30,523 nt of DNA from IMG/VR virus record IMGVR_UViG_3300017783_000123, positions 1 through 30,523 of that record. One strand, written 5' to 3'. The notes below the pieces were generated by a model. It worked only from the letters and a program-made list of their open reading frames with translations, was not told the origin of the DNA and made no database searches. The DNA comes from a virus. The translations under genes were made by a program, and so were the position numbers. Shown here one piece after another: positions 354 to 4,861 of this stretch (position 1 is the first letter of the stretch; each line of letters opens with the position of its first letter).

Positions 354-2801
354 TTAAAAGCAAGCTGCAACAAGTTCTAGTGTACGATCAATATGCCTAT
401 CAGAATTGATCGTTGTATTTGTAATATTTTGATCTCCTGCATTATTAACAACAGCAGTATTACCTACACTATTACTAGCTGCTTTAAGTGCTTCGGCTTC
501 TCTCATTTGATCAATCTGTCTCTGATTCGTCTCAAGTTGTGCTCCAGATGAATTCTCTGCAAGAAGGATTTTCCTTCTTTCCGCGACGAATTCGTTGTGA
601 TCTGCACCATATAATGAACCTAACTTGTTCATGTCTGATTCAGAATGTTTCCCAGACTTCTTCATTGACTTGAGTATCTGCCGCTTTATGAACAAATCGA
701 ATTGTTCCTCTGATATTTGCCCAGTGCGTAATCCGTGCTCTTGTAATCTAAGTTTTTTTCTCGCGCCTTCTGCACTTTGAGATGAGTTTGATCTAGCTAA
801 TCCATCCAGCACTTTCTTTTTAATATCTGGGTCCATCTCATCACCACTTGCAACTTGACCGATCGCTTTGTTACTCATAGCACCAACTTCACCATACTGC
901 TTAAAAGTCTTGTCACTAAACTTATTAACTGACTTATTCGATAAAGATGCTGTTGAGGCAGACCCTACAGTTTTTGGAGCAGCGGCCACTCCTGTTGCTA
1001 TTACCGACATATTTTTCATTACTTCAGCAACTGTTTTTAATTTCAGTTTAGAAAGTCTTTTAATCTGATCAACAAATTCTTCTAATTTATCAGGCTCGCC
1101 AGTATCGAAATTCTGGATAGCCTCTCCAAGACTATCGATTGATCCTGCAACTGTTTCTAAGTCTGGTCCAACCTTACCTAATTCAATAAATTTACCAACA
1201 GGATCATCTGAAAAGAAATTCAATACTCCTCCAACAGCCGCAGCCGCCGCAAAGGCTACTAAAGCTGCAGATACTGCGGCTATTCCACCAGAAGCTAGAT
1301 AAAGACCCGGTCCAACACTAGATAGTAGTACAAGAGAATCAATAAAACCTGATAAGAAGTCACCCACAGCCTCAATTACCATACTTGTAGCCATTCCAAA
1401 TCCAACTAAAAAGGGTGTCATTAATTCTAGAGCCTTACCAAACATCATAAAGGCTCCTGCTGCCGGAATCATTGCTGCACCAAGCGCTGCTATTGCCGCG
1501 GCACCTATAAAGATTGCAGGTGAGATAAATGATAGACCGAAAGCAGCTAAGCCTAATGCAGCCAGAACTCCTATTCCTATTCCCACACCTTTCCAATTAA
1601 TATCAGCAAATTGTTGAAAGGCTTTACCCGTAATAAACATTGCACTACCAAGGGCAATAAGTACACCTGCTCCTATTAAATATTTTGGATTCGAAATTGC
1701 TTTAAGACCTTTACCCAATCCTTTTAACAATCCAGATATTCCCGCACCTGCGCCTTTTCCTATTCCAGCCATCGCGCCTCCAGCTGCCCCACCTGCCGCG
1801 GCCTTTGCACCACCAAAACCAAATTTAGATTTAATACTATCTTTAATTGAACTTAAAACGCCACCTGCCGCCTTTTTTTCAGGGCCACTATCTTTAGAAT
1901 CATTGTCACTTATCTCATTGAGAGCTTCGATTTGCCTCTCTTGTCTAGCTATATCTTCTTTACGATTTTCTCTAGCCTGTAATACATCACCTTCTGATGA
2001 TTCTACTAATGATTCTAGAGATGAACTTGTATTTGTAATAGCCTCAAGAGCATCAGGGGGAATAACAGAAGATGCTGCTCCTGCTGGAGCACCTCCAACT
2101 GCTGGAGCACCTCCACCTACACCACCAGTAATATTATCGACTGCTTCCTGTGGATCAAATTTCTTGGCAGCCTTGGAAATTCTATTTAATAGACCTTGGC
2201 GAATCAGAAAGAATCTAGTCTTTGTAAGAAAATCTTGTTCTGGCGTTGCACCAAGAACATCATTAAGTGACATCTTTGGATCAATTTCTAATTCAACACC
2301 CTCTGTTGCTTTTTCAACCTTTTGAAGAATATTTCTCTTTATTCTTAACCATCTTAAAGCATGGATTATATTTATTTTTGGAGATTCACCAAGAATATCA
2401 GATAATTTCAATTGCTTATCAATATCTAAGTCTAGATTACCACCCTTTGTGGCTTTATCAACAGATTGAAGAATATTACTCCTAACTTTTAAAAATTTAA
2501 AAGCCAATGCGAAATTTAAATTCTTCAATTCCGTCATATCACCCATTAAGGATGATAAAGAAATAGTCTTATCAATATCTAATTCTAACTTGCCACCTCC
2601 TGTAGCCTTTTGGACAGAATCCAAGATATTGCCTTTTATGGCATCAAGTTCATCCACGAACTTTAGATTACTACTTTTTATACCAGAAACTAACTGCTTA
2701 GTTGCATCGTCGATAGTCTTGCCAAGTTCGCCCGCTTGTTTTTCAAGTGATACTTGCAATTTATCATTGATGTCATTAAGTTTATTATTTTCCTCAGGCA
2801 T
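354..2801 (-). CDS. 29: Probable tail tape measure protein (gp29 position)
   Basis: 815 residues, against 590 for T4 gp29. Residues 50-213 contain three full copies and one partial copy of a unit of about 50 residues (NILxSVxKATxGG, then LxLDIDK, then LSxxLG; near 55-88, 106-139, 154-185 and 200-213). A Gly/Ala/Pro-rich linker (224-245), a charged coiled-coil-like stretch (265-300) and a Gly/Ala-rich hinge (310-370) follow. Residues 375-530 carry several strongly hydrophobic segments, as in tape measure proteins that end up crossing the host membrane. The C-terminus is polar. It directly follows gp26 and the small -1-frame ORF, the place of the tape measure behind tail assembly chaperones in tailed phages and of gene 29 in the T4 order 26-51-27-28-29. 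Its start overlaps the end of that small ORF by 8 bases. The role is inferred from composition and position; I see no direct sequence match to T4 gp29. Confidence 0.7.
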   Translation of the reverse strand: MPEENNKLNDINDKLQVSLEKQAGELGKTIDDATKQLVSGIKSSNLKFVDELDAIKGNILDSVQKATGGGKLELDIDKTISLSSLMGDMTELKNLNFALAFKFLKVRSNILQSVDKATKGGNLDLDIDKQLKLSDILGESPKINIIHALRWLRIKRNILQKVEKATEGVELEIDPKMSLNDVLGATPEQDFLTKTRFFLIRQGLLNRISKAAKKFDPQEAVDNITGGVGGGAPAVGGAPAGAASSVIPPDALEAITNTSSSLESLVESSEGDVLQARENRKEDIARQERQIEALNEISDNDSKDSGPEKKAAGGVLSSIKDSIKSKFGFGGAKAAAGGAAGGAMAGIGKGAGAGISGLLKGLGKGLKAISNPKYLIGAGVLIALGSAMFITGKAFQQFADINWKGVGIGIGVLAALGLAAFGLSFISPAIFIGAAAIAALGAAMIPAAGAFMMFGKALELMTPFLVGFGMATSMVIEAVGDFLSGFIDSLVLLSSVGPGLYLASGGIAAVSAALVAFAAAAAVGGVLNFFSDDPVGKFIELGKVGPDLETVAGSIDSLGEAIQNFDTGEPDKLEEFVDQIKRLSKLKLKTVAEVMKNMSVIATGVAAAPKTVGSASTASLSNKSVNKFSDKTFKQYGEVGAMSNKAIGQVASGDEMDPDIKKKVLDGLARSNSSQSAEGARKKLRLQEHGLRTGQISEEQFDLFIKRQILKSMKKSGKHSESDMNKLGSLYGADHNEFVAERRKILLAENSSGAQLETNQRQIDQMREAEALKAASNSVGNTAVVNNAGDQNITNTTINSDRHIDRTLELVAACF

Positions 2802-2979
2802 TTCTTTGTTTTATTCTCTCATTTTCTTCTTTAATATAATTCTGTAACATTCCAATGTAAATTTGTCTTTCCCATGGCAACATATTATCTAGTTCAGTCA
2901 AACTATATTTATGATGCTGCATCAAGGAGAAGTTAGTCTGATAGTGATTAACCAGTGATTCGTGAGAAAGACTTAGATA
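2794..2979 (-). CDS. gp51-like -1-frame extension of gp26 (tail assembly chaperone, probable frameshift product)
   Basis: A 61-codon frame, -1 relative to gp26, runs from the slippery site at 2979-2985 to a TGA at 2794-2796, inside the start of the tape-measure gene. Translated from the shift it begins YLSLSHESLV and contains MQHHKYSLTELDNMLPWERQ and a basic, helical C-terminus. The SLTELxxMxPWER pattern resembles the short second chaperone domain made by frameshifting in many tailed phages. An independent start is possible at the ATG at 2920-2922 (42 residues), but no Shine-Dalgarno sequence precedes it. The fusion with gp26 would be 291 residues. It sits where T4 has gene 51, but T4 gp51 is far longer and I claim only positional analogy. 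The reading frame and overlap are seen directly; the frameshift is inferred. Confidence 0.65.
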   Translation of the reverse strand, partial: YLSLSHESLVNHYQTNFSLMQHHKYSLTELDNMLPWERQIYIGMLQNYIKEENERIKQRNA

Positions 2980-3668
2980 AAAAAATCACTCAGTCCAGAA
3001 AGTTTATATTCATTTTCATGTCCACAGAACTTGCATGTATATTTAAGATTATGTTCTAGTTTAGGTTGGTTAGCAATAAATTTTTGAATAGACTCTAAGT
3101 GTTTATGTCCTAAAGAATCAACGAAAGTTTCGAGTTCACTTCGATCTGTTTCATCCGTAAGATAAACATTATCTTTATCAAAGATAGACTCAATTGATGC
3201 AATGATAGCTGATGTTACATCATTATCATCTTCCATTGAATCTATATCTTTAACACGAATTGAGCGAAGAGTGAGACCAATCTCTTCTTCAATAATAATT
3301 CTAGGGTCCACTTCTGTTTCGGGCCAGTGAATTTTAGCTTCTGTTAAATCAAGGGTTACTACATTTTCTTTACCACACTCTTCACATTTGATATTGAAAT
3401 CTACTGTCTCTCCAACACTGATCGCTCTTAGTTGAAGGAATATATATTCGAGATCGAACATGGTCAGATCGTTTACTTTAATTTTATTAAATGCACAAAC
3501 ATTAATAATTTCTTTAATCATCTTGAGGATTTGTTTTTGATCCTCAGATTGTTGAGCTTGGATTAATAGTTTTTCTTCTTTAACAAGGAATGGTCTTATC
3601 TCGATCTTTTTCTTTGTAGATGGAATCTCAATCGTGTGTTTAGATGTTTCTAATACTGGTAATGGCAT
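2973..3668 (-). CDS. 26: gp26-like baseplate hub / tail assembly protein
   Basis: 231 residues. The N-terminal pattern IEIPSTKKKIEIRPFLVKEE is characteristic of the T4 gp26 family (T4 baseplate protein). Two CxxC pairs (Cys95/Cys98 in CEECGKEN and Cys212/Cys215 in CKFCGHEN) could bind one zinc ion. In T4, gp26 is assigned to baseplate hub assembly. Its position just before a small -1-frame ORF and the tape measure suggests instead, or in addition, the role of tail assembly chaperone. The last codons are AGT GAT TTT TTT ATC TAA, so a T TTT TTT slippery heptamer lies just before the stop. No Shine-Dalgarno sequence is seen before the ATG. A TATAAATA late promoter lies 39 bases upstream, between this gene and the previous one. 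Confidence 0.8.
   Translation of the reverse strand: MPLPVLETSKHTIEIPSTKKKIEIRPFLVKEEKLLIQAQQSEDQKQILKMIKEIINVCAFNKIKVNDLTMFDLEYIFLQLRAISVGETVDFNIKCEECGKENVVTLDLTEAKIHWPETEVDPRIIIEEEIGLTLRSIRVKDIDSMEDDNDVTSAIIASIESIFDKDNVYLTDETDRSELETFVDSLGHKHLESIQKFIANQPKLEHNLKYTCKFCGHENEYKLSGLSDFFI
2979..2985 (-). promoter_or_regulatory. Candidate -1 ribosomal frameshift site T TTT TTT
   Basis: Seven T in a row on the minus strand (2985 to 2979) read as GAT TTT TTT ATC in the gp26 frame. Both tRNAs can re-pair after a -1 shift, which gives TTT TTT TAT and enters the 61-codon extension. It lies three codons before the gp26 stop. No strong downstream stem is evident by eye; only a weak AGTCT/AGACT pairing about 30 bases apart can be drawn. 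Confidence 0.6.
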
Positions 3669-3720: not shown

Positions 3721-4266
3721 TTAAATTTTATCCCCTTCATGTATAATATCTCGGCATGCAAAAGTTACTGACAATTTTAAGGCAGAATCCACTGTTTCAT
3801 TTGATTTTTCAATAGCACTCACAGTTATAGGATAGCAATCGACGGCTTTTATAGCATATTTAGGATTATTTTGTTTATCTTCATGTTGAAAAGATAAATC
3901 AGCTACATATTCATCAAGATAACGAGCCTTGTATGTTTTTTGATCAATGATTCCTGCTTGCCATGTTTCAAAGATTTTCTTTACGTAAAAATCTTCTGTT
4001 AGTCTGAATGTAACACTGAGTTCATCATTCAGATAACCACTTGGCATTTTTAATAAATTTCTATACATCGAATAATCAATGCTTTCAATTTGTTTGCCTG
4101 GAAATGTGATGGATTCACAAAGTAGCGTCTGTGCACTCAAGTCAAATCCTTCGACTTCATCTATTACATATTGAGGTGCGTTGAAGAAAGCCGTGAATCT
4201 ATTTGGATTTGCTAATCCTCTCTTGTTTATCTGACCTAATAATGCTTTTATTGTTCTGGTATCCAT
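3721..4266 (-). CDS. Tail-tube-fold protein (gp19 family; tube initiator gp54-like or terminator gp3-like)
   Basis: 181 residues. The pattern NPNRFTAFF near the N-terminus, then LLCESITFPGK, SVTFRLTEDFYVKKIFETWQ and a C-terminal LKLSVTFACRDI follows the layout of T4 gp19 (163 residues): asparagine-rich start, a strand pair with a 'fully extracted' cysteine/proline motif, a helix with a conserved Trp, and a closing strand. Proteins of this fold make the tail tube and its end adaptors. The true gp19 normally lies after gp18, beyond this window, so this copy is more likely an adaptor: a baseplate-tube initiator (gp54 role) or a tail terminator (gp3 role). It starts one base after the stop of the upstream 197-residue gene, so the two are co-translated. 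I cannot decide between the adaptor roles from sequence alone. Confidence 0.6.
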   Translation of the reverse strand: MDTRTIKALLGQINKRGLANPNRFTAFFNAPQYVIDEVEGFDLSAQTLLCESITFPGKQIESIDYSMYRNLLKMPSGYLNDELSVTFRLTEDFYVKKIFETWQAGIIDQKTYKARYLDEYVADLSFQHEDKQNNPKYAIKAVDCYPITVSAIEKSNETVDSALKLSVTFACRDIIHEGDKI

Positions 4267-4267
4267 A

Positions 4268-4861
4268 TTAATATATTAATTCTTTTGATGCCTTCCAAAT
4301 GATTGCTTTACTTTTTCTGACAAATTGTTCAGTTGGTAGAAATAGTGCTGCTTCCCATTCTGTTGCTGGGACTTCGGCAATTGTTGATTTTACATTTGAA
4401 TTTAAGTATCTCTTAAAGCACGGCGCAAATTCTTTTAGTTTTGAAGATGATTTAAGAAAATTGTATGTGATTCTAAATCTTGTTGAGTCATTATATTTCT
4501 TATTACTCTTAAAATCTAAAAGTTTATCAAAGAATTTTGCTCTCAATGTAGGAGATAAGTAGTGTAAATTTAATCCATAGAAACCATCTGATGTTCTTTT
4601 TACCATAATGATAAGAGGAAATCTATCATAGTAGGGTAGTGTATCTTTTGTTTTTGGATCATAGAAATACATGAACATACGACCCGAAAGAGGTTTGTCT
4701 ACCTTTTTCAATGCACTATCTTTTAGTAATCCAGTACGTGAAGGTCTAGTAATAGACGAAAGTGTTTTTCTGAACCATTTGAGTGATTCATCTGATCTAG
4801 GATTAACACCTGCTCTAAAAGCCTTTGCCTGAATTTTATCAAAATAAGAAGTCTTTGCCAT
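4268..4861 (-). CDS. Conserved T4-like protein, possible gp2 DNA end protector
   Basis: 197 residues, basic. A conserved-looking core reads MFMYFYDPKTKDTLPYYDRF, then PLIIMVKR, GLNLHYLSPTLRAKF, and a C-terminal part with FLPTEQFVRKSKAIIWK. This pattern (YD-P-K-TLPYYDRFPL followed by LNLHYL) recurs in T4-like phages in a gene next to gp4; from memory it is often named gp2, the protein that caps packaged DNA ends and protects them from RecBCD. The neighbour gp4 agrees, since genes 2 and 4 are adjacent in T4. T4 gp2 is longer (about 274 residues), so the name is tentative. The ATG lies six bases after a TATAAATA late promoter that follows the gp4 stop directly. No signal peptide or membrane segment is seen. 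Confidence 0.45.
   Translation of the reverse strand: MAKTSYFDKIQAKAFRAGVNPRSDESLKWFRKTLSSITRPSRTGLLKDSALKKVDKPLSGRMFMYFYDPKTKDTLPYYDRFPLIIMVKRTSDGFYGLNLHYLSPTLRAKFFDKLLDFKSNKKYNDSTRFRITYNFLKSSSKLKEFAPCFKRYLNSNVKSTIAEVPATEWEAALFLPTEQFVRKSKAIIWKASKELIY

Follow-up and report, generated by a model that had tools for sequence, protein, structure and literature searches.

In phage lambda, a short and a long tail-assembly chaperone (G and GT) are produced by a -1 frameshift, at G_GGA_AAG, close to the end of a small gene lying between those of the tail tube and the tape measure. This G-T frameshifting has been described as conserved among long-tailed phages "except T4" (Atkins et al. 2016, PMC5009743), and the T4 protein gp51 is known to be needed for assembly yet absent from the particle (PMC3004832). 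According to papers that cite them, Vladimirov, Gautam & Davidson (2022, Virology 566:9-15) identified the chaperone genes of T4-like phages: some of these phages have a short gene together with a long, fused one (as cited in PMC10274946), and poly-T signals are present in the TAC-N genes of T4-like phages (as cited in PMC12846349). The TAC-N gene of Vandenendeviridae and Andersonviridae (phage Adele, PMC12846349), which are other families, likewise ends with a conserved poly-T signal for a -1 frameshift, with the motif GTTTTT. Since Vladimirov et al., as cited in these two papers, had already described frameshifted chaperones of T4-like phages, the gene that we report here is a new, well-supported member of a kind already known, and the earlier note on this DNA, which knew of no such arrangement in T4-like phages, has to be corrected on this point.

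The window that we analysed is the whole of IMGVR_UViG_3300017783_000123, a virus fragment of 30,523 nt (30.5 kb) from an uncultured marine T4-like phage. This record contains a single gene of the family PF12322 (T4_baseplate), located at 2973..3668 on the minus strand and encoding a gp26-like protein of 231 aa, which we call TAC-N, for the short form of the tail-assembly chaperone. The protein matches PF12322 with an E-value of 5e-59 and 200 bits (the curated cut-off being 24.5) and also matches PHROG 150. On the minus strand the gene ends with AGT GAT TTT TTT ATC TAA, as can be read directly: the seven Ts at 2985-2979 are in the zero-frame phase (GAT TTT TTT) required for a tandem -1 slip and form a slippery heptamer, T_TTT_TTT (2979..2985, minus strand), followed one codon later by the zero-frame stop TAA (2973..2975, minus strand). 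From base 2979, the -1 frame reads YLSLSHESLVNHYQTNFSLMQHHKYSLTELDNMLPWERQIYIGMLQNYIKEENERIKQRNA, i.e. 61 codons, and is closed by a TGA at 2796-2794, so that this extension occupies 2794..2979 on the minus strand. It matches PHROG 634 (E 6e-27) and would be the C-terminal, T-like domain of a fusion protein with a predicted length of 291 aa (230+61) and a predicted junction peptide SDFFYLSLSHESLVNHYQ. The heptamer placed by the earlier note just before the gp26 stop was thus found base for base, as were its 61-codon -1 frame, which runs 8 bases into the following gene, and the predicted length of 291 residues.

The gene order resembles that of lambda, with a tail-tube-like gene, gp26, the extension and a long ORF at the position of the tape measure. 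The tail-tube-like gene (3721..4266, minus strand) matches the PHROG 45 tail tube family (E 2e-28), and an iterative HMM started from it reaches T4 gene 54 at 3e-25, so that its family includes T4 gp54. The corresponding stretch of KVP40 (minus strand) contains two matches to this family. The long ORF (354..2801, minus strand, 815 aa) starts with an ATG at 2801, overlapping the extension by 8 bases, and is hydrophobic near residues 375-450 and 498-528. It has no match in Pfam or PHROG, tape-measure families included, so its putative tape-measure function is suggested by its position, together with the hydrophobic segments. Relatives of this ORF were recovered in only 19 of the collected loci, indicating that it diverges far faster than the adjoining chaperone. 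The likeness to lambda G/GT concerns both the location of the shift, between tail-tube-like and putative tape-measure genes, and its two expected products, a short and a long chaperone; the sequences are different, and the N-terminal part encoded in the window adds a CxxC-bearing domain after the chaperone-like fold.

In order to compare this junction with that of its relatives, viral contigs were scanned with the window protein, which yielded 80 loci, and scans with T4 gp51, KVP40 gp26 and phiM7 gp26 added 10, 2 and 78 loci, respectively; every ORF of every locus was then searched with profiles of the N and C parts built from the loci found. In every locus with both halves readable (159 out of 159), an in-frame NNT_TTT_TT[T/C/A] is present just before the gp26 stop and the same C-terminal domain follows downstream, always in the -1 frame. 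The remaining matches to the N part are cut by contig ends, have the heptamer without a readable C part (L079), or come from T4-type phages. Clustered at 70% amino-acid identity, the 159 loci fall into 79 clusters, which include KVP40, P-SSM4, phiM7, Cr30 and Melnitz; the heptamer is U_UUU_UUC in 51 of them, U_UUU_UUU in 27 and U_UUU_UUA in one, and the zero-frame stop lies 0-1 codons past it in 72. In the comparison of the junction that the earlier note had proposed, the heptamer and the frame are conserved throughout these 159 loci and the small ORF has no conserved start, and we infer from this conservation of site, frame and domain that frameshifting would also occur in the window gene.

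The residue that precedes the two phenylalanines varies between clusters (S, D, N, A, T or H), yet its codon is NNT in all 79, against 43.9 expected from the genes' own codon use (log10 P -21), and the first Phe codon is TTT in all 79, against a background of 65% (0.654; log10 P -14.6), both probabilities being somewhat overstated as they assume independent clusters. This codon use shows that selection acts on the nucleotides of the heptamer. On the upstream side, almost every cluster has the dinucleotide GG at -11/-10 (76 and 75 out of 79), and with a spacer of 6-10 nt the pairing to the anti-Shine-Dalgarno sequence is about 1.1-1.3 kcal/mol stronger than when the codons are resampled synonymously (t -4 to -6). 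This Shine-Dalgarno-like element of the heptamer-type loci resembles the one that stimulates frameshifting in E. coli dnaX; the window's own copy is weak (-3.0 kcal/mol). On the downstream side, no strong hairpin is predicted in the window. At 6-14 nt past the heptamer, 50-nt windows fold in excess of codon-permuted sequence (z about -0.7 to -0.9); since 60-nt windows elsewhere in the gene reach z -0.4 and the predicted folds are not the same from one locus to another, we do not claim a conserved downstream hairpin.

These data lead us to conclude, with a high degree of confidence, that the short and the long tail-assembly chaperones of this phage are both made from a single gene by a -1 ribosomal slip at the seven Ts. 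One could imagine that the long form arises instead by slippage of RNA polymerase on the T run (transcriptional realignment), since the run comprises seven Ts in the window and a homopolymer would be conserved under either mechanism. We consider this quite improbable, because 51 of the 79 clusters have T_TTT_TTC, thus only six Ts, which is short for productive polymerase slippage, and because the run stays in strict register with the codons, led by an NNT codon, and has the Shine-Dalgarno-like element enriched upstream at the spacing of a stimulator.

Slightly less probable still is that the small ORF forms a gene apart (gp51), with a start codon of its own or with ribosomes re-initiating on it once they have terminated gp26, which is how most annotations present it: in the relatives the -1 extension is usually listed under the name gp51, "baseplate hub assembly catalyst", with its own CDS in P-SSM4, KVP40, phiM7, Syn1, S-CRM01, Cr30 and Melnitz, and none of the eight heptamer-type records that we viewed has a joined CDS. 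However, the annotated starts vary from record to record and cut off conserved residues, whereas conserved coding extends up to the heptamer. The substitutions between loci in the extension fall at 31/15/54% on positions 1/2/3 of the -1 frame codons, which is the pattern of a translated frame. In the window itself, the -1 frame lacks ATG, GTG and TTG ahead of extension codons 18-19 (numbering from 0), and the start codons located there have no Shine-Dalgarno match. Neither a conserved start nor a conserved Shine-Dalgarno sequence was found for the small ORF across the 79 clusters: a start with a 4-base Shine-Dalgarno match at or before codon 5 is present in only two of them, and in five of them not one of the first 25 extension codons is a start codon. 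The view expressed in the earlier note, that the extension has no good start or Shine-Dalgarno sequence of its own, is thus borne out in the window and in its relatives. The fact that T4 gp51 carries the C domain fused to an N part also speaks against a separate gene. The annotation of the extension is inconsistent in other respects as well (L183:3268-3399, L182:2505-2691, L085:5861-6004), being truncated by an internal start in Syn1 and Melnitz and unannotated in ACG-2014d. Finally, the idea that an indel has split one gene, by sequencing or assembly error or by decay, is what a homopolymer at the junction of a metagenomic contig might suggest, but it has virtually no chance of being correct and can be ruled out by the identical frame relation in 159 loci, finished isolate genomes included.

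The predicted structure of the N-terminal part is in agreement with the ribosomal frameshift reading. An AlphaFold2 model of the window gp26, built with 74 relatives, has a pLDDT of 94, and in a second-look alignment its best match among 995 PDB chains is 2ob9, the chaperone of HK97 (84 residues aligned with Z 7.1 and rmsd 4.1 A), followed by YqbN, 3klu (Z 7.0), the tail-assembly chaperone of a phage element; the next row has Z 3.7. Both matches are confined to the first 85-87 residues and are moderate (Z about 7, below 8; rmsd 4.1-4.5 A); the rest of gp26 is an added domain, in which CxxC pairs occur at 95-98 and at 212-215. A plain Foldseek search of the same model against the PDB returned nothing significant, the 74-row profile gave only weak unrelated matches among the sequences of solved structures, and the chaperone match did not recur with a gp51-type model, for which there was no structural match with a Z of at least 5. 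We regard the fold match of the modelled N domain as support for its identity as a tail-assembly chaperone, not as proof.

T4 itself has a different arrangement. Genes 26 and 51 lie next to each other in divergent orientation, on the minus and the plus strand respectively, away from the tape measure gene 29, and both proteins match PF12322, as does the window gp26. In gp51 the PF12322 domain continues in frame into a homologue of the -1 extension, and its alignment with the predicted window fusion has no gap at the slip point (aligned segments DVFKLLVNPDEI and DFFYLSLSHESL). Gene 26 ends with GAG TTC TTT GAG TTA CTA TAA and has no slippery site. The same 26/51 pair without heptamer is present in ten further T4-type loci from viral contigs, except in L089, where the short gene runs off the contig, and in L095. 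In the latter (L095:3983-4755, IMGVR_UViG_2974754850_000001), the gp51-type gene is split, with a -1 relation and a 64-base overlap near 4296-4360, either because of a sequencing error or because the reading frame truly changes within the N domain. Aes012, phiP4-3 and RB43 likewise carry two genes; in RB43 (L180:3501-4794), the long and the short PF12322 genes follow one another on the same strand, whereas the pair of T4 is divergent, and this tandem is possibly a relic of a duplication. T4 itself has two separate paralogues, 26 (short) and 51 (long), and no frameshift, and on this point too the earlier note has to be corrected. It had also considered that relatives lacking the heptamer would count against its interpretation; such relatives do exist among T4-type phages, but they have kept the long form as a second gene.

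A PF12322 search of 20 records found one copy in each of the 11 that are of the heptamer type and two in each of the nine without heptamer: one copy with the heptamer and two copies without it are mutually exclusive in 20 records out of 20. KVP40, which belongs to the Straboviridae, the same family as T4, uses the heptamer. In an unrooted tree of the N part, the frameshift-type genes (99/97) and gp51 (100/98) form separate clans, gp26 is on long branches and the gp26 of RB43 stands apart; these separate clans are compatible with a single duplication, the direction of which is not fixed by an unrooted tree. We think it likely that T4-like phages obtain their pair of chaperones in one of two exclusive ways, either from one gene with a U_UUU_UUY -1 shift and a Shine-Dalgarno-like element about 9-14 nt upstream, or from two genes (26 for the short form and 51 for the long one) that go back to one duplication event within the T4 branch, of which the RB43 tandem would be a relic. 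Compared with the chaperones of Vladimirov et al., as these are summarised in the citing papers, the protein family and the tail locus are the same; the window phage is an uncultured marine one, and the all-or-none relation between heptamer and duplication, the codon test and the Shine-Dalgarno-like element were computed here. The strict either/or relation and the selected element may be new.

In the mechanism that we propose, most ribosomes would terminate at the TAA and produce the short form, TAC-N (231 aa), and a minority, with two tRNA-Phe on TTT TTT, would slip by -1 on T_TTT_TTT and translate 61 more codons, producing the long form, TAC-NC (291 aa). By analogy with lambda G/GT, both forms would function as chaperones: the N domain common to both would coat the tape-measure protein, and tube subunits would be recruited by the additional C domain, so that the tube polymerises around the tape measure. 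T4-type phages would make the same two products from the paralogues 26 (short) and 51 (in-frame long), with no slippery site. The suggestion of the earlier note that gp26 is the "G" protein of this phage and the small ORF its "T" domain is now supported by the conserved heptamer and frame, the lack of an alternative start, the lambda-like gene order, the predicted fold of the N domain and the existence of T4 gp51 as a fusion in one frame.

Marine T4-like phages would thus also come under the frameshifted-chaperone rule of long-tailed phages, and T4, for many years cited as an exception, would satisfy the chaperone rule with two genes. The practical value of this finding lies in a corrected annotation of the cyanophage "gp51". 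It also offers a testable role for T4 gp26 and gp51: if the idea of two exclusive routes is true, the "hub assembly catalyst" gp51 would be the GT protein of T4.
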